IMG/VR virus record: IMGVR_UViG_3300006751_000169 | Span: 1-21,663 of that record | Length of the DNA: 21,663 nt | Origin: a virus | Strand: one strand, 5' to 3' | Part shown: positions 6,945-17,977 of the stretch, piece by piece | Position numbering within the stretch: the stretch's first letter is position 1 | Layout: each line of letters starts with the position of its first letter | Notes under the pieces: model-generated | The model's database searches: none | Told to the model about the DNA's origin: nothing | The model's input: the letters and a program-made list of their open reading frames with translations, nothing else | Program-made: the position numbers and the translations under genes

Positions 6945-7108
6945 TATTCTAAAAAGAAAGCTCTAGCTTCTATCTCCTGTTTTAATTCTTCTTGAAAAGT
7001 ACTATTTAATTTCTCTAACACAGCATCTAAATCTCTTACTAAAGATTGTGCTACATCTTCTCTATATTCTTTACTAGCTCTTGTTAATGCTTGTACTATT
7101 TTTGCCAT
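6944..7108 (-). CDS. Small helical protein, 54 aa, unknown function
   Basis: ATG at 7108 overlaps the TAA of the nozzle gene as TAATG. The frame runs to TAA at 6944-6946, itself overlapping the next ATG. The product begins MAKIVQALTRASKEYREDVA and continues as a continuous charged amphipathic helix with Leu/Val at heptad-like spacing (SLVRDLDAVLEKLNSTFQEE). It ends in AFFLE and is probably a short coiled coil. Evidence that it is real: both junctions are perfect TAATG overlaps, no other gene fills the 160-base interval, and the amino-acid pattern is coherent. A chaperone, a tail-nozzle partner or a small virion protein are all possible. Confidence 0.6.
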   Translation of the reverse strand: MAKIVQALTRASKEYREDVAQSLVRDLDAVLEKLNSTFQEELKQEIEARAFFLE

Positions 7109-9327
7109 TATCTTCTTCCTCCTGCATGTATATCTAATCTAAAGGTTCCTAATTTCCAATTCGCATCAATTGCTGTATTAGATATAGTTAATGCTACAGC
7201 TCTAGCTCTAGCTCTAGTATCAATTTTTTGCGTACTTGATGTAATTGTAAAAGGACCTAATGAGGAACTAGCTGCGGAATCATTAGGATAATTTCTTAAA
7301 TCTAATTGAACAATTGTATTTCCAGCTTGAGCAATAAAATCAGGAAGTACCCTACTTACTCTCATCATAAATTCTCCATCCCCTCTTAAATCAGCTAGTG
7401 AAGTAGCTGCACCTCTAATTACTTTCTGTGTAATATCATAATCACCTGAAGTAATGTTAGCTGCGATGGCGCTTACAGTTCCTATCTTAACTTGATTAAC
7501 TCCTGTTTCGTGTTGATAATAATATGAAACTCCATCTGTGTTTCCGTACACATCATAAGATGAATCAACGCCTGCATCATAAGCAGTCGCATGAGGTAAA
7601 CCAAATACAGCTGAGTCTACCCACGTAGTTCGTGGGAATACAGAGCTTGCGTTAGTATACCAAATTGGTCTTTCAGAGGTAGAGTCTAAGTAACTATATA
7701 TAACACATCTGTTTACTACGTTTGAATCTGCTTTTGGATAAAACCACATAACTTCTCCAAACAAGTTATTAATTCCACAATATACTAATTGACCAGATGT
7801 TGTATTTAAATCATCATAAACATAATCCTCAACTAAACAGTCCATTGATTCTAAGTTACCAGTATATCTAAAGAAACCATTATCAGACATCCAGTATGCA
7901 GCACCATCAACCTCAACGGCTGCATTCTTACCAATCAATCCACAGTTAGTACCTACTTGTTCATAGGCGAAAGTAAAAGGAGTTCCCACAAATCTCATAG
8001 TAAATAGAGATGTGTTGGTCCAAACATAAAGAGCATTTCTACCAAGCTTAGCTCCCATGATCCGTGATCCAGCGGCCAGTCTTTGTGTACCAGCACTATT
8101 GGTTGCTGTTGGTGCCCAGGTAGTAATATCTTCTTGGTCCGAGAACCTTATAAACATATCGTCTTGTGTATCCGTATCTCCAATTGTTGTTTCTGTTCCA
8201 AATAAAACTAAGTGACGATCCGGAGTAGAGACTAACATATCACGTGACGCTGTTGGTGCACCACTAACAATTGTTGCTCTTGTTTCTACTGCTCTGAGTG
8301 GATCTGCATCCCATTCAAAAACTGCTCCATTACAAATTAATGCAAGAGCTGTACTTCCTAAATTATCTAAAGACCAAAGTCCTGGTTCTGCTACTTTATC
8401 TGTTGTAGCTGCTGCTTGGCCCCATGCAGCATAATTACTATAGTCTGTAACAGTGGCGCCATTACTGTGAGAAGCGTTTGTTGTTCCTCTAACATTTCTA
8501 ACAATTCCTGTGAAGCTTGTGGCAGTGAGACCTGTGTAAGATATTTCTTCATTATCAACTTTTATATAATTTGTTCCACTAGCTGGAAATCCTGTAGTAC
8601 TAGCTACAGTAATCGTGGTTCCAGAACTTCCGGTTCCATATGCATCAGCACCTAGTGCTCCATTTAAAGTAGTAGTTTGTGGATTAGTTACGCTACCACC
8701 AAACTGAGAAATACCCCATCCATAAACCCCAACCTGATCCGCAGGTCCTACGTGGTAATATTGATAATAAGTTATCCCTCCAGAAGTAGTTGCGCCTGCT
8801 CCAGTTTCATTACTATCCATTGTAATAGTAAGAGTAGCGGCTGTTGGTACACTAGTGACCATAAATTTTTTATCACAAAAATCTGAAGCACCAAAATCAG
8901 AACCTGTAATAGCAGTAAATGTAGTTGTATCCCCAAATAAAATAATGTCTCCAGCTAAAATATTGTGTGTAGATGAAAATGTAATTGTTACTTCCGGATC
9001 TCCATTTGTTGTGCTGAATGCGTTCGTAAGAGCTGTACCTGATGGATTAACTAAAGGGTGAATGTCATAAAAAACTCCTCCAGAATAAACATATAGAATT
9101 CTATTAGTTCCTAGCAGAGAGTATTTAATACCACCATTATTAACCATCTGATGAATAGCCCGAGTAGGTCCTGTTAATTTCTTATCTCCCAAAGAAGACC
9201 AACCACCTATTTTTTCAGGAGTACCATATCTAAAACGGACATTTTCCCCACCAGTCCATTGCGACTCAGCACCCGTAGCGGTTACTTGTTTATTAAATCC
9301 AGGTAAAAAGGCTATTTTTTGCAGCAT
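7108..9327 (-). CDS. Tail nozzle / stabilisation-type protein (P22 gp10-like), 739 aa
   Basis: The protein starts MLQKIAFLPGFNKQVTATGA; ATG at 9327 is chosen. A GTG at 9336 in the same frame would add three residues; neither has a strong SD. The N-terminus, the following GGENVRFRYGTPEKIGGW motif and the C-terminal FRLDIHAGGRR are features I associate with podovirus 'packaged DNA stabilisation' proteins. These are P22 gp10-like and act as the tail nozzle below the adaptor ring, the T7 gp12 position. Its length suits that role (T7 gp12 is about 790 aa). Residues ~233-295 hold a module (GFPASG...EEISYTG...RG...H..GATV) also found in the 280-aa gene. Many Tyr/Trp/Gly strands suggest a beta-propeller-like fold. 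It is followed by three tiny coupled genes. Confidence 0.75.
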   Translation of the reverse strand: MLQKIAFLPGFNKQVTATGAESQWTGGENVRFRYGTPEKIGGWSSLGDKKLTGPTRAIHQMVNNGGIKYSLLGTNRILYVYSGGVFYDIHPLVNPSGTALTNAFSTTNGDPEVTITFSSTHNILAGDIILFGDTTTFTAITGSDFGASDFCDKKFMVTSVPTAATLTITMDSNETGAGATTSGGITYYQYYHVGPADQVGVYGWGISQFGGSVTNPQTTTLNGALGADAYGTGSSGTTITVASTTGFPASGTNYIKVDNEEISYTGLTATSFTGIVRNVRGTTNASHSNGATVTDYSNYAAWGQAAATTDKVAEPGLWSLDNLGSTALALICNGAVFEWDADPLRAVETRATIVSGAPTASRDMLVSTPDRHLVLFGTETTIGDTDTQDDMFIRFSDQEDITTWAPTATNSAGTQRLAAGSRIMGAKLGRNALYVWTNTSLFTMRFVGTPFTFAYEQVGTNCGLIGKNAAVEVDGAAYWMSDNGFFRYTGNLESMDCLVEDYVYDDLNTTSGQLVYCGINNLFGEVMWFYPKADSNVVNRCVIYSYLDSTSERPIWYTNASSVFPRTTWVDSAVFGLPHATAYDAGVDSSYDVYGNTDGVSYYYQHETGVNQVKIGTVSAIAANITSGDYDITQKVIRGAATSLADLRGDGEFMMRVSRVLPDFIAQAGNTIVQLDLRNYPNDSAASSSLGPFTITSSTQKIDTRARARAVALTISNTAIDANWKLGTFRLDIHAGGRR

Positions 9328-9377
9328 ATGATTCACTATATATTAGTTATTAATATAAAGAAAGTGAGAAATCTAGC

Positions 9378-9899
9378 TTACATGAAATCGCTATTAAAAG
9401 CTATGATAGTTTTTCGTGAATTACTCTTAATTTTTTCTGATGTATGAGACATGAAAGCAGGGAAAGTAAGTAAATCTCCTTCTTCCGCTTTTATCTTATA
9501 TGTTTGTTTACTATTTAATAAAGGCCTTATTGTAGTTGTCATACTATTATCTGGAAGTTCTAAATAAAAAGTATTACCAAAATTTGTTTTTGCATGCCTA
9601 TGCCATTCATGACAATCATTCTCATAGTATTGTTGAAACCATGTATTCTTGATTTCCCAGGATTTCTCTTTTAACAGCTCCTGTATTTCCCTCATGTAAG
9701 GAGTTATAATTTTATAGAAAAGATCTAAGTATTCTCTTTTATAATCTGAAGGAATATTCCAATCAGTCTTGGAAATATTCTCATAAGAAGATGGAGGCAT
9801 TTTATCTATTAAAGATAGCAGTTCCTTCTTAATCTCTTTATGCTCTTTTATCTTGGTAATAAGATAATAGCTTTCAATCTTTTTTATTTTAATTGTCAT
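9378..9899 (-). CDS. 2OG-Fe(II) oxygenase-like protein, 173 aa, HxH variant
   Basis: ATG at 9899 forms an ATGA overlap with the stop of the upstream oxygenase; a longer frame from 9950 is unlikely because it lies inside the neighbour. The N-terminal ~80 residues are helical and charged. The catalytic-like core is HEWHRHA at residues 97-103, a strand FYLELPD at 111-117, then EEGDLLTFPAFMSH with His152 and Arg162 before the strand KTIIAFNS. This is the double-stranded beta-helix order of 2-oxoglutarate/Fe(II) oxygenases: first His, distal His, then Arg for 2OG. The usual carboxylate ligand of HxD is replaced by His (H100-R-H102), as in some phage 'putative 2OG oxygenase' families. The substrate is unknown. 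Confidence 0.75.
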   Translation of the reverse strand: MTIKIKKIESYYLITKIKEHKEIKKELLSLIDKMPPSSYENISKTDWNIPSDYKREYLDLFYKIITPYMREIQELLKEKSWEIKNTWFQQYYENDCHEWHRHAKTNFGNTFYLELPDNSMTTTIRPLLNSKQTYKIKAEEGDLLTFPAFMSHTSEKIKSNSRKTIIAFNSDFM

Positions 9900-10471
9900 T
9901 GACAACAGTTTCCTTCTCCATTGAAACCGTACCATCCAGTAATAACACATTTCTTTTTTTTCTTATTGATGATACCTACATGGGAATGGGTCCAATCTGT
10001 TGGCCAAATAAGAGTGCTTCCTATAACACAATCAGAAGTAAATTTTTGCTTAGGCCAAGATGTTCCTGCATCTTTAACGGTATTTAAATAAGTCATAAAC
10101 ACAAGTACTCTTGGGGAAGAATGTACACAACCTCTCTCACAATGTATCTTTTTAAATCCTCCACCTGGCTTATAACATTGAATATTGTATGCTTCAGTTA
10201 TAGCCCACCTCTGTAATAAACTATCTAGTTCTGGATATTTTTTTCTATACTTATCAATACATTTCTGTAACTGATTTTTATATTCATTGAAGGGGTAATC
10301 ATTAAAGTCCGGTTGGATAGATATGTCCTTAGATTCTTTTACATCTTTATCAATTCCCATTCCCACAATGCCTTCAAGAACTTTGTCTTGGTTGTCATGA
10401 TAATATTTTAATATGTCTTTACATATTTTCGTACTAACTTTTGATTGATATATAAAAGTATCTTGTTTCAT
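9896..10471 (-). CDS. 2OG-Fe(II) oxygenase, 191 aa, HxE variant
   Basis: The start ATG overlaps the previous TGA as ATGA. Helical N-terminal half. The core begins YNIQCYKPGGGFKKIHCERG, where His110-x-Glu112 would be the metal pair. It is followed by the strand RVLVFMTYLN (121-130), a DAGTSW turn, and IWPTDWTHSHVG with the distal His at 162 or 164. The final strand is CVITGWYGF. The pattern matches a family I know from marine phages (PGGGFK, HCER, TYLN, WP-DWTH, ITGWY), annotated as 2OG-Fe(II) oxygenase. The 2OG-binding basic residue is not obvious; a Lys-rich run at 170-174 precedes the last strand. The Cys-rich tail (NCCQ) is unusual. Target unknown. Confidence 0.82.
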   Translation of the reverse strand: MKQDTFIYQSKVSTKICKDILKYYHDNQDKVLEGIVGMGIDKDVKESKDISIQPDFNDYPFNEYKNQLQKCIDKYRKKYPELDSLLQRWAITEAYNIQCYKPGGGFKKIHCERGCVHSSPRVLVFMTYLNTVKDAGTSWPKQKFTSDCVIGSTLIWPTDWTHSHVGIINKKKKKCVITGWYGFNGEGNCCQ

Positions 10472-10806
10472 TTATTTATAATTATATTCCAGGTTAGATC
10501 TATTATTAAATTCTGTAGTAATAGATCGGTAATCTTATTTTTTTGAATATACTCATGTAATTCTTCTATGTCCAAAATAATCCATTTGTTCTTAAAACTA
10601 AATACCATTTTTTCTGCTTTTGTATCAAAGAATCCTATCTTTCCTTCTGTACTATCTTCAAATTTTTTAATTGGTCTAAGGTCAAATTTATATGATTGAT
10701 TGGCTGAGCCATGTAATATCCCTTCTACATCCCACCCTTCTTTCTGTTGTGGGTACTTTATATTTTTTAATAACTTTAAAAAATCTTTAGTGCTATTCCG
10801 CGTCAC
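10468..10806 (-). CDS. Unknown protein inside the oxygenase cassette, 112 aa
   Basis: The start is GTG at 10806, overlapping the end of the upstream oxygenase by 14 nt; no ATG occurs until far inside the frame. The stop overlaps the next ATG as ATGA. The sequence is basic at the N-terminus (MTRNSTKDFLKLLKNIKYPQ), then has a beta-like part (YKFDLRPI, GKIGFFDTKAEKMVFSF, KWIILDI) and a helical hydrophobic C-terminus (DLLLQNLIIDLTWNIIINK). It has no His/Asp metal motif, so it is not an oxygenase by sequence. Its tight coupling on both sides suggests it works with its oxygenase neighbours, for example as a partner or substrate carrier; this is speculation. I do not recognise the family. Confidence 0.65.
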   Translation of the reverse strand: MTRNSTKDFLKLLKNIKYPQQKEGWDVEGILHGSANQSYKFDLRPIKKFEDSTEGKIGFFDTKAEKMVFSFKNKWIILDIEELHEYIQKNKITDLLLQNLIIDLTWNIIINK

Positions 10807-11506
10807 GATGTTTAAAAGCTATTGGTAGTCCTAAATGTTTTCTCGTATCATATATATTAGCTGCTTTACCTCTAACAACTGTATTACTCAAATAATCATC
10901 TATATTATAATGTAAAAAAACTTGGGCACATTCATCTCCTTTAAATTCTTTTCGCCAATGTTCTAGTTCACACCCAGAATATACTAACATGTCTCCTGGT
11001 TTTAAATCTACTTTAACTCCTTTAGACTTTGATGGTTGATAATCTTGAACACCATGTACACCTTTAAGTGGACCATATACATGTCCACCTTTTGGATTAG
11101 GGTTTAGATAAATTGGCCAATGGTCCCCACCTAAATTCATTGTTGCTGAAAGCTCACAACTAAATCTATCTTTATGTCTAGCAAGAACATCTCCGTTTTT
11201 ATAAATTCTTGCATATGAATAAGTTGGAGATAACCTTAATTTAATTTTTTTCTCTATAACTGGTTGTACCTTTAATAATAGTGTTTCCATTGCTATATCC
11301 CCATAGTGAGAATATGTATTAGGCACCTGAGAGTCCTCCCATGTTCCCCAATCTGTTGTTGATGGTGGAATATATTGAGTATTACGCATTGTTTCTGCCA
11401 CCTGTCTTTTCATTAAAAAATAATTATAAACAAAACACGCTAGGTCAGAGGAAACCGCTTTTCTAATTACTATATATCTCATCTGTTGAAAGCTTTTTTT
11501 AGTCAT
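10793..11506 (-). CDS. 2OG-Fe(II) oxygenase, 237 aa
   Basis: ATG at 11506 is chosen (MTKKSFQQMRYIVIRKAVSS); an upstream TTG at 11515 in the same frame is less likely. The metal site is RHKDRFSCELSATMNLGG, with His111 and Asp113 in this numbering, and the distal His183 in GCELEHWRKEF after KPGDMLVYSG. The latter is the usual strand before the third ligand. The domain order (N-terminal helices, a TYSYARIYKNGDVLARHKD entry, a long insertion with PNPKGGHVYGPLKG, a C-terminal FLHYN strand) fits a P4H-type 2OG oxygenase also found in cyanophages and pelagiphages. The gene overlaps the upstream gene by 8 nt and the downstream one by 14 nt. The substrate cannot be read from the sequence. Confidence 0.82.
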   Translation of the reverse strand: MTKKSFQQMRYIVIRKAVSSDLACFVYNYFLMKRQVAETMRNTQYIPPSTTDWGTWEDSQVPNTYSHYGDIAMETLLLKVQPVIEKKIKLRLSPTYSYARIYKNGDVLARHKDRFSCELSATMNLGGDHWPIYLNPNPKGGHVYGPLKGVHGVQDYQPSKSKGVKVDLKPGDMLVYSGCELEHWRKEFKGDECAQVFLHYNIDDYLSNTVVRGKAANIYDTRKHLGLPIAFKHRDAE

Positions 11507-11963
11507 GTACCCCAAACGATAAAATTATTCTAGGTGTTAAACCTAATGATCGATGTTTAACTCCTTTTCCTATAAACAATCTATCTCCTTTCTCTACAAT
11601 TATTTCTTCATTATCAATAAAATAAAGTGTTCTACCATACACTCCGAATATGTTAACTGATTCTATGTCTTTATGAGCGGGACCTCTTGCTCCTTTAATT
11701 ATTGAAAAAAATATATCTAAATCACTTGGTAAGTTTTCTGGGTTTAAAGAACTATTTAATTTGTTATAAGTATCATAGAAAAATTCTTCTTTCTCAACAT
11801 TTTTTATTTTAAAGCAGCTTTCAAGAACATGGTCAAGCATCCAATGAGACATTAGATTACTTTTAAAATTATTAACAGAGAGAATTTCGAATAATTTATT
11901 AAAGTCTAATTCATATTCAAATTTAATGAAATTTTTTTGAAGGAAATAATTTTGATTGTTCAT
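11499..11963 (-). CDS. Cupin-fold 2OG-Fe(II) oxygenase-like protein, 154 aa
   Basis: This short 154-aa protein has the catalytic core in its C-terminal third. GPAHKDIESVNIFGVYGRTL gives His97-x-Asp99; VEKGDRLFIGKGVKHRSLGL gives the distal His137; Arg145 precedes ILSFGVHD. This HxD...H...R order in about 60 residues fits a minimal double-stranded beta-helix. It could act as a 2OG dioxygenase or as a metal-binding cupin. The N-terminal ~90 residues are helical (LDFNKLFEILSVNN). ATG at 11963 lies 4 nt from the upstream TAG. The C-terminus overlaps the next gene. It is smaller than the usual 2OG oxygenase (about 180-250 aa), so it may be a compact form. Confidence 0.72.
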   Translation of the reverse strand: MNNQNYFLQKNFIKFEYELDFNKLFEILSVNNFKSNLMSHWMLDHVLESCFKIKNVEKEEFFYDTYNKLNSSLNPENLPSDLDIFFSIIKGARGPAHKDIESVNIFGVYGRTLYFIDNEEIIVEKGDRLFIGKGVKHRSLGLTPRIILSFGVHD

Positions 11964-11967
11964 AATA

Positions 11968-12609
11968 CTATTTAAATGGATGTCCTAGATTCCACATAAC
12001 TAAAGAATATCTCTTTCCTTTTGTTACAGGCTTTACTCTATGCCACACAAAACTAGGGAAGATAACAATACTGCCCTTAGTTTTTAATTCCTTACATTTA
12101 ACAACATGTCTTTTTTTATCAGGATCCTTGTTTCTAAAATCAAATTCAAAATCACCACCTTTATAATCTTTAGGATCAGATAATGAAAGAGCAACAGATA
12201 GCTTTCTAATTTTACCATGAAAGCCTAGATTATCGGGAGTGTTATAAGGCTCAGTCCAACTATCACAATGCCAATCATAGTGTTGGTTTAATTTATATTT
12301 TGTAAATTGACACGGCTCGCTCCAATCCCATTGGAAATTCCAACCTGCTTTTTCATTAGCTTCATGTATATAAGGACCCAGTTCACTATATATCCATGGG
12401 TGTTCTAACCAAGTTATATGTGAGTTCCTTTTCTTTTTTAAAGTGGATAGTTCTTTCTTTTTTAATGGTTGTTTCGTTAGGTCTCTGTCGCCAAAGCCAC
12501 CGGTTAAGGCTTGTTGTTTTGTTTGTTGTAAACCCAGTTGTATAATTCGATCACACAAATAAGAAGATAGGGCAGACTTATAATAGTAATAATAATTATT
12601 TAGATTCAT
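11968..12609 (-). CDS. 2OG-Fe(II) oxygenase, prolyl-hydroxylase (PKHD) type, 213 aa
   Basis: This is the clearest oxygenase of the set. CQFTKYKLNQHYDWHCDSW places His114 and Asp116 as metal ligands, with His190 in IVIFPSFVWHRVKPVTKG and Arg200 in KRYSLVMWNLG as the 2OG-binding residue. The strand IRKLSVALSLSDPKDYKGGD between them is diagnostic of the PKHD / prolyl 4-hydroxylase-like family (PF13640-type). The length is normal for the family. ATG at 12609 overlaps the upstream gene by 14 nt; a run of Tyr (NNYYYYYKSA) follows the start. The expected reaction is 2OG- and O2-dependent hydroxylation of a protein or small-molecule side chain; the target is not known. Confidence 0.9.
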   Translation of the reverse strand: MNLNNYYYYYKSALSSYLCDRIIQLGLQQTKQQALTGGFGDRDLTKQPLKKKELSTLKKKRNSHITWLEHPWIYSELGPYIHEANEKAGWNFQWDWSEPCQFTKYKLNQHYDWHCDSWTEPYNTPDNLGFHGKIRKLSVALSLSDPKDYKGGDFEFDFRNKDPDKKRHVVKCKELKTKGSIVIFPSFVWHRVKPVTKGKRYSLVMWNLGHPFK

Positions 12610-13105
12610 AAGTAAAAGTTAAGATATAGTTTTGTTGACTAGATAAATTAGGAGTTATTCTATAAACTAAATGAGCTGGAAACATTACAAAATGATTAGT
12701 GTTCAATCCTGTCTCAAAAAATTTATTTTTGAATTTATTGTCATCATACTCTATCACAACATTGCAAGAATTTTTATCTACCTTAACTCCATAAAGCAAA
12801 ACATAATCCACAGAATTTCTTAAATCCATTGGGTCTACTTCTATTACTGGAAGAGATTGTTCGTTTGGTTTATATATACTACCAACCGTATCTTTTTTTA
12901 TAAGGAATCTACGATGTTTCAACATAAAAAAATCTCTTATATATGTATTTAATATATCCACACTTCTAGAAAATGGAAAATTGTTAGGCTCAGAGGTATA
13001 AGATAAAACATCGGCACGTAAGGTTTCTGAATTTATTTCAACACCTTCAGGTAATTTTATTTCCCCACTGTAAACAGCTGTCTCTGATAATATTTCTTTA
13101 TTCAT
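12596..13105 (-). CDS. Degenerate 2OG-oxygenase-like protein, 169 aa
   Basis: First gene of the promoter-led oxygenase run. The C-terminal pattern NHFVMFPAHLVYRITPNLSS followed by QQNYILTFTYE (about 137-167) aligns by eye with the final strands of 2OG oxygenases ('FPS-x-x-x-H-x-I-x-P...R-x-S-x-x-x-N'). However, the distal metal His is replaced by Tyr148 and the 2OG Arg by Gln/Asn. No HxD/HxE pair is visible upstream; the strand-like parts are DYVLLYGVKVD and CNVVIEYDD. This suggests a related fold without catalytic metal, perhaps a regulatory or binding subunit. ATG 13105 has a weak SD and lies about 14 nt from the predicted transcript start. The oxygenase relationship is inference. Confidence 0.7.
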   Translation of the reverse strand: MNKEILSETAVYSGEIKLPEGVEINSETLRADVLSYTSEPNNFPFSRSVDILNTYIRDFFMLKHRRFLIKKDTVGSIYKPNEQSLPVIEVDPMDLRNSVDYVLLYGVKVDKNSCNVVIEYDDNKFKNKFFETGLNTNHFVMFPAHLVYRITPNLSSQQNYILTFTYESK

Positions 13106-13125
13106 CTTTATGCTTTTATAAAATG

Positions 13126-13154
13126 TGTATACTAAAAATACACTAAGACGTCAA
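13126..13154 (-). promoter_or_regulatory. Sigma70-like promoter for the oxygenase cassette
   Basis: On the minus strand, TTGACG (13154-13149) is followed after exactly 17 bases by TATACA (13131-13126): 5/6 and 4/6 matches to the -35 and -10 consensus. The predicted start, about 13119, is 14 bases before the ATG at 13105. It lies in a 99-base spacer, the longest gene-free stretch of the window. The spacer also holds a 7-bp inverted repeat (CAACATC/GATGTTG, 13156-13174) just upstream of the -35 box. Confidence 0.5.
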
Positions 13155-13155
13155 C

Positions 13156-13174
13156 CAACATCCAGATGATGTTG
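13156..13174. repeat. 7-bp inverted repeat in the spacer before the oxygenase promoter
   Basis: The arms CAACATC (13156-13162) and GATGTTG (13168-13174) are perfect complements around a 5-base loop. No T-run follows on the minus strand, so it does not look like an intrinsic terminator for the 155-aa gene. Directly upstream of the -35 box, it could be a DNA-binding site or a weak RNA hairpin at the 3' end of the previous transcript. Confidence 0.4.
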
Positions 13175-13204
13175 CTATCGTTTTGATATAGATCAAAAAA
13201 AAAA

Positions 13205-13672
13205 TTAAGCTAGTTCGTCGACTAATGTCCAACCAGTGGTGTTATCGTTTTGATAAGCAGTTTCATCCCACGTCCACATCCATCCATGAGTGTTTGCTTC
13301 TCTATCACTTAGTTGTTCTGCTGTTAGTGTAGGTTCTGCACCGAGCGGTGAATCCCAACGAGCATCTGTAGTATTTTTTATCCAAGATGGATAAGGTTGT
13401 TCAGGCCAAAAATTATTAGTAGCTGCGTCCCAAGTATAACCTATACCTGCGTAGTTTCCTCTAAAAGGAGTACCACCCAGTACGTGTGTATTCTGATGTG
13501 TGTTGTAAGAAGTTTGAATCCATAAATGTGCTGGCCAATTATTATGGGTTTCTAGATATGCTTGACCTACTGCTTCCTCTTCTACGTTCTCAGCGTTGAG
13601 CACATCTTTGTCGTCAACCGCTAGGACTTGTAGAACTTCATTGTCTTCAGTGATTTTTGCGAAACTTGCCAT
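13205..13672 (-). CDS. Conserved marine-phage protein of unknown role, 155 aa (FRGNYAGIGY type)
   Basis: This 155-aa protein begins MASFAKITEDNEVLQVLAVD. It has GGTPFRGNYAGIGYTWDAA at about 66-84, YPSWIKNTTDARWDSPLGAE at 94-113 and WTWDETAY near 133-140. These blocks (FAKI-NNxV, TPFRxNYAGIGYTYD, YPSW...W..P, WDE) are typical of a small Trp-rich protein widespread in cyanophages and pelagiphages, often next to tail-fibre or oxygenase genes; this is from family memory. No catalytic motif is seen and the function is unknown. It may be a virion or fibre-associated protein. There is no SD before ATG 13672. A promoter-like sequence ends a few bases upstream, so the mRNA may be leaderless. Confidence 0.75.
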   Translation of the reverse strand: MASFAKITEDNEVLQVLAVDDKDVLNAENVEEEAVGQAYLETHNNWPAHLWIQTSYNTHQNTHVLGGTPFRGNYAGIGYTWDAATNNFWPEQPYPSWIKNTTDARWDSPLGAEPTLTAEQLSDREANTHGWMWTWDETAYQNDNTTGWTLVDELA

Positions 13673-13680
13673 ATATACTA

Positions 13681-13707
13681 TTTATAAATTTTGTTCGTTA
13701 AAGTCAA
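13681..13707 (-). promoter_or_regulatory. Promoter-like sequence before the 155-aa gene
   Basis: On the minus strand, TTGACT (13707-13702) and TATAAA (13686-13681) are separated by 15 bases, shorter than the usual 16-18. The predicted start, about 13674, is only 2 bases from the ATG at 13672, and no SD is present. The call rests on good hexamers in a spacer of 39 bases; the spacing lowers confidence. Confidence 0.35.
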
Positions 13708-13711
13708 TGTA

Positions 13712-14335
13712 TTATTTTATATAACTATCTCTATAACCATAGGGTGGTAGAGGTCTTGCATTACAAGCTATAGAATATCTCGGTTTTGGACCTAAATTCT
13801 TAGATATCTTATGATACATAGAAGAAGGAAAAACAATTAAAAGTTTATCTCTGGGTTCTATAGACCACGTGCTTGAGTTAAAGTGATTATATTCTGATAC
13901 CCCTAGATCATAATTATGACTACTCCAATTATTGTTATGAAATTCTATTTTAGAAGAGTTGTCATGACATTTATTATAATAGACAGCTGAGTACATATTA
14001 TTACAATGTTTGTGTCTTCCAGATTCTTCATTAAAACTACACCTAGTTGCCCATGAAGTTGTTATTTCAAACTCTGTTTTTTTATAACTCATAACTTCTT
14101 CATTGAATAAGTTAATTGAGTCTAATATTTTTGTTTTTAATGTAGTGAGGGGACTATATATATTTTTATTATTATATAAATACACATCCCTGCTCAGATA
14201 ACATTCTCGGTTGTCAGCAGGTTCATATTCTAACTTATGAAGAATAGATTCAATTTTATCTTGGTGTTCTTTAGATATATTTAATTCAAATAAACATATA
14301 GGTGATGCAAATAAAGGTATCACTTTCTGTGACAT
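13712..14335 (-). CDS. 2OG-Fe(II) oxygenase-like protein (PF13759/TIGR02466 type), 207 aa
   Basis: The start MSQKVIPLFASPICLFELNI is the typical opening of the 'putative 2OG-Fe(II) oxygenase' family ('...LFPTPV...'). TTSWATRCSFNEESGRHKHC (92-111) gives the first ligand region, with His108 and His110 (HxH), followed by the strand MYSAVYYNK. PRDKLLIVFPSSMYHKISKN (161-180) gives the distal His175, and Arg186 in PKPRYSIACNARP is the likely 2OG contact. The length is normal. The gene follows the glycine-rich tail protein by 27 nt without a clear SD (AGAAAG only) and precedes the 155-aa gene. It is probably the first member of the accessory cassette. The substrate is unknown. Confidence 0.82.
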   Translation of the reverse strand: MSQKVIPLFASPICLFELNISKEHQDKIESILHKLEYEPADNRECYLSRDVYLYNNKNIYSPLTTLKTKILDSINLFNEEVMSYKKTEFEITTSWATRCSFNEESGRHKHCNNMYSAVYYNKCHDNSSKIEFHNNNWSSHNYDLGVSEYNHFNSSTWSIEPRDKLLIVFPSSMYHKISKNLGPKPRYSIACNARPLPPYGYRDSYIK

Positions 14336-14362: not shown

Positions 14363-15286
14363 CTATTGAAACTTATATCTTATTCTAACAATTCCGCTAC
14401 CACCAGAACCACCTGTACTATTGTGAGGGCCAGATGTTCCGCCTCCACCGCCACCGCCAGTATTAGCTGTGCCAGGTTGATTAGTAGAACCACCACCGCC
14501 TGTTCCTCCAGGGGATGTTGGACCATTTGAGCCACCTCCGGCACCACCAGAATAAGAAGTGTTTGAACCTGTTATACCTGTTGTTGCTCCTGCGCCGCCT
14601 GTTCCTGCAGTACGATTATTTGGTGTTGGTTGTCCAGCTGCTATAGCGCCTCCGCCACCTCCACCGGATCCATCTCCGTCAGAGCCTGCTCCTGCGCCGC
14701 CGTTTGTTCCTTGTGCTGGTGATACGGGTGGACTGTTTCCACTTCCGCCTCCAGTTTGTCCGCCGAATCCTCCGCCAGATCCGCCACCGGATCCTCCGGG
14801 TTGTCCAGCTTTTGGACTGTTATTAAAATATCCGCCTCCGCCTCCGCCGGCAGAGTCTATACTTAAAGCACTAGAACCTGATCCATTTCCAGCACTAGAA
14901 GGACCTCCGTTTCCAACGCTAATTGGATAAGATCCAGGACTTGCTGAAAGTGTAACTGCTGCTGCAGGGCTAGCTCCTAAAGGAGAAGCCGTATAACCAC
15001 TAGTTGTACCTGGAGATTCTCTGTAACCTCCGGCTCCGCCAGCTCCACCGTGACGACCTGCGCCACCGGCTCCACCAGCTACTACTATATAGTCAGCTGC
15101 TTCTGATCCGTCAGCATTGCCGACAGCTGAAACAGTAAAAGTTCCTGGTCCTGTAAATGTATGAATTCTGTAATCGCCGTCTGTTGTTTCTGTTCCACCT
15201 GAAGCTGTTATAAATTTTGCTGAAGGTCCATTATCTTTCCCGAAGCCTCTTGCGGATGCTGCTCCTCTTGTTCCTAATAAAGGCAT
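14363..15286 (-). CDS. Glycine-rich tail/appendage protein, 307 aa
   Basis: After a ~20-residue leader, residues ~23-70 form a beta domain (AKFITASGGTETTDGDYRIH ... TGPGTFTVSAVGN ... DYIVVAGG). Residues ~70-295 are extremely Gly/Ser/Ala/Thr-rich with runs of up to seven Gly, and the C-terminus is GGSGGSGIVRIRYKFQ. This N-terminus / glycine core / 'GIVRIRY' end arrangement is typical of glycine-rich phage tail proteins (Gly_rich_2-like). It may be a polyglycine-helix sandwich at the distal tail, in the manner of gp38-like receptor-binding adhesins; that analogy is inference. SD AGGAGGA lies before ATG 15286. Base composition is much more GC-rich than the neighbours because of Gly codons, so this alone does not show transfer. 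Confidence 0.78.
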   Translation of the reverse strand: MPLLGTRGAASARGFGKDNGPSAKFITASGGTETTDGDYRIHTFTGPGTFTVSAVGNADGSEAADYIVVAGGAGGAGRHGGAGGAGGYRESPGTTSGYTASPLGASPAAAVTLSASPGSYPISVGNGGPSSAGNGSGSSALSIDSAGGGGGGYFNNSPKAGQPGGSGGGSGGGFGGQTGGGSGNSPPVSPAQGTNGGAGAGSDGDGSGGGGGGAIAAGQPTPNNRTAGTGGAGATTGITGSNTSYSGGAGGGSNGPTSPGGTGGGGSTNQPGTANTGGGGGGGTSGPHNSTGGSGGSGIVRIRYKFQ

Positions 15287-15306: not shown

Positions 15307-16638
15307 TTATGCGTACTGTGTCATTGAAGCAAACACTGTGTAGGCTGATGCACCTGTTTTAATAACAGTATACACGTACGAATCAACTGAACTCGCATTT
15401 CCTTCACTTGGGGCTGCTCCACCTTGCCATTCTGTTGTAACACCTGATGTAGTTCCATCTACTTGAACAACAGTATTTCTGTATTCAGAACTACCTATAG
15501 TTACTAGATGACAAAGAGTTAAAGATTCTCCCGTTGCCATAATAGTGTTCATTGTATTAGAACCATCACCTCTAAGATTAATTGTCCAATCTCCTGAAGC
15601 GTCTGATGTAAAATACCAAACGGCTTGAGTTGTTGCATCATAGTTTATAGTTCCTGTAGCTGCAGTTGCATCTATAGTAACTTTTTCTGCAACAGATTCA
15701 ATTGCTCCTAATCCATCAATTGTGAATTTTCCATAGCCATTAGGGGCCATAGTCATAGCACCGTTAGCTGCGTCTGTAATTGTAAATGTTCCAGAGTTTG
15801 TACCACTATTTGTACTTAAAACTAAGTCAGTAGTTCCACCCGTTGTAACCGTTAAAGTTCCAGCGCCATTAGAAGTTAAAACTGCTGCTGCTGCCGCATC
15901 TCCAACTTTAACCGTATCTGCTCCTAAAACAACATCTCCTGTTCCTGCAGGGGTGATATTAATATCAATATTACTATCACTACTTCCTGTAGATGAAAGA
16001 GTTGGGCCATTTCCGCTAGCTCCCGCGGCTACTGTAAATTCGTTTTCCGCTGAACCTGTCGCGGTTATTTTTATTAATTCATTTCCATTAGTATCTAAAA
16101 TAGATGTTCCAATAGCTGGTGAAGTTAAAGTTTTGTTTGTTAAAGTCTGTGTTCCTGTAAGAGTTACATCTCCAGCTGTAGTTGAAAAACCAGTATCGAC
16201 AACACTAGGATTACTTCCTGCACCATCAATATAAATAATTTTCCATCCTTTATCTGTAGTGGAATAAGTTACTGTACCACCTGATCCAGTAGCTGTTTTA
16301 AGCTGAACTGTATAGGCTCCACTTGTACTATTTTTAATTAAGTAAAAGTTCTCAACATCATTAGGAAAAGTTACAATTTTAGCTCCTGTAATTGCTTGAG
16401 GAGATTCAGCGCCTAAAATAATTATTCTTGTAGCTAAAGTTGCTCCTGTTGAGCCATCTGATACAGCTAAAGCTGTTGTATTAGCTCCTCCGCCTGCAGC
16501 ATTTAGAGTTTGTACGGCATAACCGCCTGCTATTTGTTCTATGATATTTAAATTTGTATTAGTCTTTGTTCCCCATGTACCGGCGTTTTCACCAGTTGCC
16601 ATTAATTCGACGCCGAGAGGTGTATATGTTGATGCCAT
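15307..16638 (-). CDS. Tail fibre-like protein, 443 aa
   Basis: The N-terminus MASTYTPLGVELMATGENAG continuing TWGTKTNTNLNIIEQI is a short module common to fibre-like proteins of marine phages and is presumably the virion attachment part. The rest is Thr/Ser/Gly/Ala-rich, beta-strand rich and low in charge (LTGTQTLTNKTLTSPAIGTS; TGDVVLGADTVKVGD), as in trimeric fibres. The C-terminal ~100 residues (LTLCHLVTIGSSEYRNTVVQ to FASMTQYA) look like a globular cap. SD AGGAG lies 8 nt before ATG 16638. A promoter-like sequence lies upstream (16663-16691). It is the probable host-contact component together with the downstream glycine-rich protein. Confidence 0.75.
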   Translation of the reverse strand: MASTYTPLGVELMATGENAGTWGTKTNTNLNIIEQIAGGYAVQTLNAAGGGANTTALAVSDGSTGATLATRIIILGAESPQAITGAKIVTFPNDVENFYLIKNSTSGAYTVQLKTATGSGGTVTYSTTDKGWKIIYIDGAGSNPSVVDTGFSTTAGDVTLTGTQTLTNKTLTSPAIGTSILDTNGNELIKITATGSAENEFTVAAGASGNGPTLSSTGSSDSNIDINITPAGTGDVVLGADTVKVGDAAAAAVLTSNGAGTLTVTTGGTTDLVLSTNSGTNSGTFTITDAANGAMTMAPNGYGKFTIDGLGAIESVAEKVTIDATAATGTINYDATTQAVWYFTSDASGDWTINLRGDGSNTMNTIMATGESLTLCHLVTIGSSEYRNTVVQVDGTTSGVTTEWQGGAAPSEGNASSVDSYVYTVIKTGASAYTVFASMTQYA

Positions 16639-16662
16639 TATTTAATCTCCTAATTATTGTTA

Positions 16663-16691
16663 TTAATATTATGTTTTGAAAAACAAGTCAA
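16663..16691 (-). promoter_or_regulatory. Promoter-like sequence before the fibre gene
   Basis: On the minus strand, TTGACT (16691-16686) is followed after 17 bases by TATTAA (16668-16663), 5/6 and 4/6 consensus matches, in the 58-base spacer after the 426-aa gene. The predicted start (about 16656) leaves an untranslated leader of about 18 bases containing the SD AGGAG. It would allow separate expression of the fibre and glycine-rich genes. Confidence 0.4.
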
Positions 16692-16696
16692 CCTAT

Positions 16697-17977
16697 TTAT
16701 CCAGCATGTGTTTTCTCAGTATATGTAGCACTGTCATCATAATCTTTATCTGTGTAATTTCCACTAGTATTATAAACTAATTCTCTGTAATATAAAGGTG
16801 AAAGTTCACCTACTGAAACAGTTGCTGAAACTCCTGTTAATCCCATTACATCATTAGGGGCTATTGCTCCTATAGAAGCATTTAAAGAAGATGGCGCTGT
16901 TAAACCAACAGTCATTTGGTCTAATGAAATAGAGCCTACAGAAACAGTCGACCCTAATCCAGATGGTTGAACTATTTGTTCTTCGGTAACAGTAATATCA
17001 CCAATAGAAGCAGTTACTGAAACTCCTGTTAATCCCATTACATCCGCAGGATCAATAGCACCTACTGCAGATGTTGATCCAACTCCAGTTAATGGTACTC
17101 CTATTTCATAACCCAATGCGCCAACAGAAGAAGTTGCTGCTATTCCTGATATTGGTTCCGTACTTGCACCGTATGCTAAACCTGGTGTTCCTACTGATGA
17201 TGTAATACTTTGACCACTTAATCCAACAGACATTTCAGTTGGAGATATTGCTCCAACACTTGTAGTTGATACTCCACTAGAGCTAACATCAACAATAACT
17301 GTCATTGCAGATTCACCCCAGTTTTCATAACCCCAAGGATCTCTGCCCCAACCTTGCTCGTTGTATGCTGATACTTCTCCGATAGAAGTTGCTAAACCAA
17401 GTCCACTTAAAGTAATAACTGGTTCATGGGTATCGCCCCATGGCTCAAGGCCCCAGTTATCTCTACCCCAACCAGCATTAGCACTAACTTCTGTTAACGC
17501 TCCAACAGATGTTGTAGCTATTCCAGCTGTATTAATATGAACTATAATTTCTGTAACGGGTGTGCCTAAAGAAGATGTTAAACCGGATGGTGCTGTAAGA
17601 ATTTGTAAAAGTTCAACTTCAGCTGAACCAAGTGAAGATGTTAAACCTAATCCAGATAATGCAACGGAATAAGTTACTCCCCATCCCGCATTACCATATG
17701 TAGTTCTGCCCCAACCTTCTTCATTGAAAGCTGTTAAAGAACCTATTGAAGATGTTAAACCGGAAGGTGCTGTTAAACTTATATCAAGTGCACTCTCACC
17801 CCAGTTTTCAAATCCCCATGTGTCCGAACCCCAACCTTGTTCTGGAAAGGCTTCTACTGATCCAATGGATGAAGTTAAAGATGATGGTGCTGTTAATGAT
17901 TGTGCAACAGTATTAGATTGCCAGGTGTTCTGTCCCCAGGCTACTGAAGGACTATCACCACCCCAAATTGATGCCAT
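16697..17977 (-). CDS. Repetitive GWG/bead-repeat tail appendage protein, 426 aa
   Basis: The protein is built almost entirely of repeats. About 14 units carry the core [S/T/A]-S/T-[I/L/V]-G preceded by 'LTAPSGL' or 'LTGVS'. In the C-terminal half (about 236-390) they recur every 20-23 residues. In the N-terminal half, Trp-rich inserts GWGSDTWGFENWGE, GWGRTTYGNAGWG, GWGRDNWGLEPWG and GWGRDPWGYENWGE separate the units. The start MASIWGGDSPSVAWGQNTW also has this style. Such proteins occur in marine phage structural operons; a beta-solenoid or bead-string appendage is inferred. The SD is inside a hairpin that spans the upstream stop and this start. The C-terminal ~30 residues are Tyr/Asp-rich and unlike the repeats. 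Confidence 0.75.
   Translation of the reverse strand: MASIWGGDSPSVAWGQNTWQSNTVAQSLTAPSSLTSSIGSVEAFPEQGWGSDTWGFENWGESALDISLTAPSGLTSSIGSLTAFNEEGWGRTTYGNAGWGVTYSVALSGLGLTSSLGSAEVELLQILTAPSGLTSSLGTPVTEIIVHINTAGIATTSVGALTEVSANAGWGRDNWGLEPWGDTHEPVITLSGLGLATSIGEVSAYNEQGWGRDPWGYENWGESAMTVIVDVSSSGVSTTSVGAISPTEMSVGLSGQSITSSVGTPGLAYGASTEPISGIAATSSVGALGYEIGVPLTGVGSTSAVGAIDPADVMGLTGVSVTASIGDITVTEEQIVQPSGLGSTVSVGSISLDQMTVGLTAPSSLNASIGAIAPNDVMGLTGVSATVSVGELSPLYYRELVYNTSGNYTDKDYDDSATYTEKTHAG
16826..17044 (-). repeat. 27-bp exact direct repeat inside the 426-aa gene
   Basis: An identical 27-base sequence occurs at 16826-16852 and 17018-17044 (192 bases apart), encoding the DVMGLTGVS part of two bead units. 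Identity at DNA level in an otherwise diverged repeat family suggests recent unit duplication or recombination between units. Confidence 0.75.

Follow-up and report, generated by a model that had tools for sequence, protein, structure and literature searches.

A tail-linked cassette of 2-oxoglutarate-Fe(II) oxygenase-like genes in a pelagiphage virion operon and its possible role in tail protein modification

Why a marine phage should keep a dense set of different oxygenase-like genes among those that build its virion is the question raised by IMG/VR record IMGVR_UViG_3300006751_000169. Positions 1 to 21,663 of this record, a 21.7-kb fragment referred to here as the window, were analyzed. On the minus strand of the window, virion genes at the right edge lead into tail genes, which are followed by the cassette at positions 9378-14335, a nozzle gene, and more virion genes. 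The cassette consists of nine densely packed minus-strand genes, designated A to I, with overlaps of 4-14 nucleotides (nt) at the C/D, E/F, F/G, G/H, and H/I junctions. Six encode 2-oxoglutarate (2OG)-Fe(II) oxygenase-like proteins that bear metal ligands (A, D, E, F, H, and I), C encodes a pseudo-oxygenase, and B and G encode proteins of other kinds. This is the arrangement that a first-pass annotation had described as six oxygenase-like genes with a degenerate relative and two others, and the coordinates, families, and ligand conservation found here agree with it. The explanation favored below, to which an even chance is given, is a tail-linked protein-tailoring module whose predicted oxygenases would hydroxylate tail appendage proteins.

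The nozzle protein of the window was 39-46% identical to its counterparts in HTVC023P, HTVC027P, and psg01, which are cultured or sequenced HTVC023P-type phages, and homologous virion genes in a common order were present in the window and in pelagiphages of this type. A matching architecture was also found in contigs from Pelagibacteraceae single-cell genomes. The DNA of the window belongs to the virion operon of an HTVC023P-type pelagiphage, and the nozzle identity together with the Pelagibacteraceae contigs makes SAR11 the most likely host.

Inspection of profile matches assigns A, D, H, and I to the 2OG-Fe(II) oxygenase superfamily, with catalysis predicted. A, D, and I each matched a 2OG family in Pfam with a score that passed the cutoff, whereas the match of H came from a PHROG profile alone. 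Protein A (13712-14335; 207 amino acids (aa); ligands H108, H110, and H175) is of the 2OG-FeII_Oxy_5/phrog_81/TIGR02466-like type and matched PF13759 (7e-15), phrog_81 (3e-35), and TIGR02466 (1.7e-12, below the cutoff of that model). Protein I (9378-9899; 173 aa) is of the same 2OG-FeII_Oxy_5/phrog_81 type (PF13759, 7e-8; phrog_81, 5e-25). Protein D (11968-12609; 213 aa; H114, D116, H190, and R200) is PKHD/prolyl 4-hydroxylase (P4H)-like and matched PF13640 (3e-14), phrog_61 (9e-38), and, below cutoff, NCBIfam PKHD hydroxylases (1e-14); comparison with Protein Data Bank (PDB) sequences returned PiuC (2e-5) and prolyl 4-hydroxylase (0.03). Protein H (9896-10471; 191 aa; H110, E112, and H164) matched phrog_61 (6e-27) and, below cutoff, PF13640 (3e-4), and has cyanophage homologues of up to 43% identity.

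The least certain of the six is E (11499-11963; 154 aa; H97, D99, H137, and R145), a cupin/2OG-like protein whose only match apart from unnamed PHROGs, such as phrog_4992 (4e-11), was to Cupin_2, below cutoff at 3e-4. E occupies the interval between D and F, where an A-type gene sits in most relatives; it was found by direct search in four IMG/VR contigs, and a tblastn search against isolated phages gave no match. Sorting by family places A and I in phrog_81, D and H in phrog_61, and F in phrog_2954, with E cupin-like. The cassette thus consists, on sequence grounds, of separate families sharing one slot rather than of a simple tandem duplication, the only recognizable pairs being A/I and D/H. 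The earlier description of the members as mostly 2OG-Fe(II) oxygenase-like and of several distinct families is borne out by the Pfam and PHROG profiles and by the conserved ligands.

The H-x-D/E/H motif and the distal His were invariant, gaps aside, among the unique homologues of A (111 sequences), D (133), and F (113). In the D homologues, H114 and D116 were present in 133/133 and H190 in 124/124 ungapped sequences. The first His of I was kept in 45/45 homologues and the distal His in 43/43 ungapped ones, the second ligand being His or Asp, and the ligands of H were kept in 24 homologues, where variation was confined to D/E/H exchange in the second ligand and a few gaps. For E, a putative member with a weak cupin profile match, all four residues were retained in 3/3 unique homologues. 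Chance motif matches are ruled out by this conservation across homologues.

Protein F (10793-11506; 237 aa; H111, D113, and H183) matched phrog_2954 (1.5e-46), and its Pfam matches all fell short of the cutoff. F and its relatives are labeled ferrochelatase in PHROGs and in the HTVC023P, HTVC033P, HTVC008M, and cyanophage records. No Pfam match to the ferrochelatase domain (PF00762) was obtained with six members of the family (the window protein and five relatives), and H111, D113, and H183 were invariant across 50 diverse homologues. Structure prediction with AlphaFold2 followed by Foldseek, which covered C and F, gave a double-stranded beta-helix model of F with a predicted local distance difference test score (pLDDT) of 91.7, the top hits of which were Pseudomonas P4H, PHD, and PhyH, with 2OG oxygenases matched at E values of 1e-9 to 1e-6; no ferrochelatase was present among the 50 best hits. 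The top match was Pseudomonas P4H, one entry being the complex with EF-Tu, and the fold also resembled the natural-product oxygenases SnoK and FtmOx1. The position aligned to the usual 2OG-binding Arg/Lys, ∼10 residues past the distal His, is a conserved Gln, and another residue may bind 2OG in F. A search of PDB sequences with the F profile returned nothing useful, and a search for cellular (non-phage) relatives returned mostly phage-like contigs within single-amplified and metagenome-assembled genomes.

Ferrochelatase identity is rejected for F, given the lack of a ferrochelatase Pfam match in six family members and of a ferrochelatase among the 50 best Foldseek hits, the HxD...H triad, and the prolyl-hydroxylase-like fold. 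By motif and predicted fold F is oxygenase-like, with activity predicted. Pairs of 2OG oxygenases and ferrochelatases appear in the passages found of two papers (PMC9599517 and PMC11561400), the latter naming phrog2954. Because F is oxygenase-like, such pairings are better read as one all-oxygenase cassette. Proteins of cluster c3, annotated as “DNA endonuclease V”, are likewise oxygenase-like.

To count oxygenases with a bait that was not itself among the counted genes, relatives of the slot were collected with the nozzle protein. The sample comprised 41 contigs in which 4.5 kb or more preceded the nozzle gene on its upstream side, the window's own sister contig being excluded; searches baited with F and with C gave at least 600 matches each. 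At least two oxygenase genes were present in the slot of 38 of the 41 nozzle-baited contigs (mean 4.0, maximum 8), and the slot was also found in HTVC023P, psg01, and HTVC033P. The co-occurrence of the set in related phages, on which the first-pass annotation had staked its proposal, was therefore observed. The cassette is not special to this genome, nor is the window an exceptional outlier: multi-oxygenase slots are the rule, and a count of six is high without being extreme, 7 of the other 41 contigs, all independent, reaching six or more.

The recurrent order was tail genes, B, C, D, an A-type gene, F, sometimes more tail genes, and the nozzle gene, with extra oxygenases variably inserted. 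The location of the slot between tail genes and nozzle in 38/41 contigs argues for modification of tail proteins. B (13205-13672; 155 aa; phrog_7759, 1e-30), a non-oxygenase gene, was present in 134/165 loci of a first survey, in most cases with tail genes on one side and oxygenases on the other, and is possibly tail-associated. G (10468-10806; 112 aa) is a small conserved gene found repeatedly where the slot ends toward the nozzle; 16 loci of that survey and several of the other loci contain relatives, and it had no match in Pfam, PHROG, or NCBIfam, and neither B nor C matched a Pfam family. On the question raised earlier of a multi-step system versus several independent targets, slot content was found to be modular and to vary between close relatives. 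Inverted members were seen at loci L012, L166, and L048, in addition to those of HTVC027P considered below, and HNH-endonuclease-like genes, judged by eye from sequence, lie between cassette genes at L063 (7548-7991) and L162 (1602-2021); the latter are possibly homing elements that aid cassette movement.

Co-variation of the oxygenase set with its neighbors was assessed on nozzle-baited loci only. Similarity of the oxygenase set was correlated with similarity of the upstream tail genes (r = 0.58, Mantel p = 0.001, n = 20), and the correlation was retained when the nozzle was controlled for (partial r = 0.37, Mantel p = 0.005, n = 28). The oxygenase set was unrelated to nozzle similarity in these contigs (r = 0.05 and -0.09). 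When head genes were added as a control, the tail-gene signal persisted but was weaker (partial r = 0.39, p = 0.03, n = 12). That the oxygenase repertoire tracks the upstream tail genes and not the nozzle is a further reason to favor tail proteins as substrates.

Other tailoring enzymes were found in the slots of relatives. At least 12 of the 41 nozzle-baited contigs carried a halogenase, carbamoyltransferase, or sulfotransferase-cluster gene, and a methyltransferase-like gene was seen as a weak match; none of these four kinds is present in the window. The halogenases belong to the tryptophan-halogenase family (PF04820, E about 1e-110), and their best PDB match was the cyanophage iodinase VirX1 (5e-93). 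VirX1-like genes lie in pelagiphage-type slots at L035 (3787-5268), L034 (3648-5171), and L050 (3545-5011), and in those of L254, L256, L260, and L261. Carbamoyltransferases (PF02543 with PF16861) are encoded at L171 (3576-5090), L187 (7536-9014), L201 (7327-8904), L205 (8540-9928), and L218 (6612-7955); the carbamoyltransferase gene of L168 (8340-9792) is apparently split in two. Two slot sulfotransferases (PF13469), in the related contigs L180 (8513-9781) and L185 (4531-5826), are fused to an Asp/Asn beta-hydroxylase domain (PF05118), which suggests a scheme of “hydroxylate, then conjugate”. The PF13469-PF05118 fusion looks rare, and the L180 protein had no match in a search of PDB sequences. 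The presence of halogenases, carbamoyltransferases, and the sulfotransferase-hydroxylase fusion in these slots also favors tail-protein modification.

The same gene families adjoin tail genes in phages of other kinds, which also favors tail-protein modification. In the T4-like cyanophages Syn9, S-RIM44, S-WAM1, and P-TIM40, a small gene stands behind the tail-fiber and tail-fiber-assembly genes, and after it come one or two halogenases and a run of 2OG, JmjC/cupin, and DUF6445 genes, with F-family genes in Syn9 and S-RIM44; the five cyanophages examined were drawn from the halogenase hit list and are not a random sample. In pelagimyophage HTVC008M, five such genes are flanked by neck genes and large tail-like genes, and a relative of B (3e-14) adjoins the cluster. 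Hidden Markov models (HMMs) of the window families matched these cyanophage and HTVC008M genes (F at 4e-29 and H at 6e-43, for example). In Syn9 (L243, 14966-25145), two halogenases and about ten 2OG/JmjC/DUF6445-type genes stand right after the tail-fiber-assembly genes, and several members of this run bear misleading names (DNA endonuclease V, minor coat protein, ferrochelatase).

A wider proposal is made only tentatively. Unrelated marine phages, namely HTVC023P-type podoviruses and T4-like pelagi- and cyanophages, might share an exchangeable island of hydroxylases, pseudo-oxygenase, VirX1-type halogenases, and carbamoyl- and sulfotransferases that chemically diversifies receptor-binding tail proteins, as a counterpart, at the level of protein chemistry, of sequence-based tail-fiber variation.

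The mechanism envisaged for the window is as follows. The cassette would be transcribed together with the virion genes and so expressed late, and the oxygenases would use Fe(II), O2, and 2OG to hydroxylate side chains on newly made tail appendage proteins. Candidate substrates are the fibers or the adjoining Gly-rich adhesin-like protein, together with the products of two further tail-appendage genes, and several divergent oxygenases could provide several residue or sequence specificities. In relatives, slot enzymes might go on to sulfate, carbamoylate, or halogenate hydroxyl or aromatic groups, whether introduced or native. Such modification could alter or shield the surface that binds the host, or could stabilize the fibers. 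The nearest folds or relatives are largely protein or peptide hydroxylases (P4H for F, PHD2/P4H for C, PiuC and, weakly, prolyl 4-hydroxylase for D), which likewise favors a protein substrate in the tail. Of the tail or capsid protein hydroxylation proposed earlier as one candidate, the tail part is what the evidence favors most.

The Gly-rich adhesin-like protein is encoded immediately upstream of the slot (14363..15286, minus strand; PF21722 Gly_rich_2, 5e-8; phrog_2295, 1e-43). The two further tail-appendage genes (15307..17977, minus strand; 443 and 426 aa) were assigned by gene order and by kinship to tail clusters c0 and c1. The downstream border of the slot is formed by the nozzle/stabilization protein (7108..9336, minus strand; 742 aa; phrog_3287, 2e-95). 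The tail protein encoded at 16697-17977 contains Trp-Gly repeats (GWGRDxWGxExWG). In those relatives that have a halogenase, Trp-rich repeats of this kind would offer it natural targets.

Several observations weigh against modification of tail proteins. Three of the 41 contigs have no oxygenases in the slot, and their tail region looks different, without B or the Gly-rich protein. Three oxygenase-like genes of HTVC027P (gp72-gp74; L004, 12093-13754) are oriented opposite to the virion genes, and the halogenase of S-B64 is a counter-example that is not adjacent to fibers. Contigs with the Gly-rich protein carried more oxygenases (mean 4.6 versus 2.2 per contig), a difference that favors a tail role but is uncorrected for relatedness. 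Adjacent genes swap together, so linkage may cause part of the co-variation, which the nozzle control removes in part. Families of 2OG enzymes are promiscuous in their substrates, and likeness to the P4H/PHD2 fold leaves the target unfixed; PF05118 also includes lipid-A hydroxylases.

It is unlikely that the cassette is instead a set of auxiliary metabolic genes acting on host metabolites or, with the “ferrochelatase”, on iron or heme metabolism, its site in the virion operon being a historical accident. Small molecules are often substrates of 2OG enzymes, and a metabolic role is the published one for pelagiphages in the passages found of PMC9599517, PMC11561400, and PMC12753301, the last of which reports that SAR11 iron-uptake genes rise during infection by HTVC027P. 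Against this, F is no ferrochelatase on the evidence of Pfam, triad, and fold given above, and neither the repeated siting beside tail genes in unrelated phages nor the turnover with tail genes would be expected.

Marginally less probable again is tailoring of a natural-product-like small molecule or peptide made in infection, or modification of a host lipid or glycan against superinfection. Halogenase, carbamoyltransferase, sulfotransferase, and 2OG enzymes together do resemble natural-product tailoring sets, and the fold of F also matches SnoK and FtmOx1. Among the listed slot genes, however, no non-ribosomal peptide synthetase, polyketide synthase, precursor of a ribosomally synthesized and post-translationally modified peptide, or terpene synthase was recognized, and the remaining slot content is tail genes. 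The tailoring enzymes are moreover accessory (12/41 contigs), oxygenases alone being the rule. Modification of host proteins to favor infection, for example of translation factors as with Pseudomonas P4H and EF-Tu, is improbable: the EF-Tu-bound P4H match of F speaks for it, but it leaves the tail-gene linkage and turnover unexplained, and such an effect would presumably be more useful early than from the virion operon.

Protein C (12596-13105; 169 aa) is a conserved pseudo-oxygenase, and none of its family matches reached the cutoff. The AlphaFold2 model of this protein, a double-stranded beta-helix with a mean pLDDT of 89.5, had 2OG oxygenases as all of its best Foldseek matches (PHD2 and P4H, E about 1e-5). 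The fold is thus retained but the metal triad is lost, in about 110 of 112 unique homologues: neither His ligand is present, Tyr (Tyr148) stands at the distal position in 110/112, and Asn (Asn159) occupies the Arg position in 111/112. Intact copies of C occur in more than 100 contigs and keep many invariant residues despite divergence to about 40-50% identity with the window protein. C directly preceded D in 98 of 124 cases, and 84 of those 98 pairs had an identical 14-nt overlap, a count to which common ancestry contributes. The term “degenerate relative” used for C at first pass holds for the lost ligands and fails as a description of decay. That C is a recently decayed, functionless oxygenase copy, as the loss of every recognized ligand might suggest, is very improbable, given its conservation to roughly 40% identity with fixed Tyr148 and Asn159 and the usually fixed overlap with D; random decay is disfavored on the same grounds. 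Most likely, C is maintained because it assists D without catalyzing a reaction itself, or because it serves as a subunit that presents the substrate.

If tail proteins are modified, many “auxiliary metabolic genes” of ocean surveys would be mis-filed host-recognition genes, and the viral halogenase VirX1 would gain a concrete, testable candidate for its native substrate, which the exchangeable island, if real, would also provide. Recurring annotation errors (phrog_2954 “ferrochelatase” and phrog_274 “DNA endonuclease V”) would in addition be corrected, including in ecological inferences published from them. The clusters themselves are published and the enzyme families known. The literature searched, which was open-licence and incomplete, gave no statement of a tail-fiber role for these enzymes, nor the re-identification of F, the conserved pseudo-oxygenase C with its 14-nt overlap with D, the wider tailoring set, or the recurrence beside tail fibers in unrelated phages.

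Comparison with known systems places the cassette near the 2OG oxygenase clusters of HTVC023P-type pelagiphages published as auxiliary metabolic genes by Wittmers et al. 2022 (PMC9599517). The passages found of that paper concern the same phage group and describe several non-orthologous 2OG oxygenases near each other, adjoining a “ferrochelatase” gene; they list a heme or iron partner, and the tail-linked slot, pseudo-oxygenase C, and the halogenase, carbamoyltransferase, and sulfotransferase genes are absent from them. PKHD and prolyl hydroxylases (PiuC, YbiX, Pseudomonas P4H, and PHD2) resemble D by sequence (PiuC/PKHD) and F and C by fold (P4H/PHD2), but the fold matches are at about 10-16% identity, D falls well below the PKHD equivalog cutoffs, and C has no metal site. 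The VirX1 neighborhood of Syn9/Syn10 has the run of 2OG, JmjC, DUF6445, and F-family genes behind tail-fiber genes and shares VirX1-like halogenases with pelagiphage slots; these are, however, T4-like phages of a different family, the window has no halogenase, and no B or C homologue was found in that neighborhood with the window-family HMMs. Among the structural matches of C was TlxI-TlxJ, a heterodimer of two subunits with the 2OG-enzyme fold. One Tlx subunit is non-catalytic. TlxI and TlxJ (PDB 7vbq and 7vbr) are fungal natural-product enzymes, unlike the phage-encoded C and D, and by analogy their heterodimer is a possible model for a putative C-D complex.

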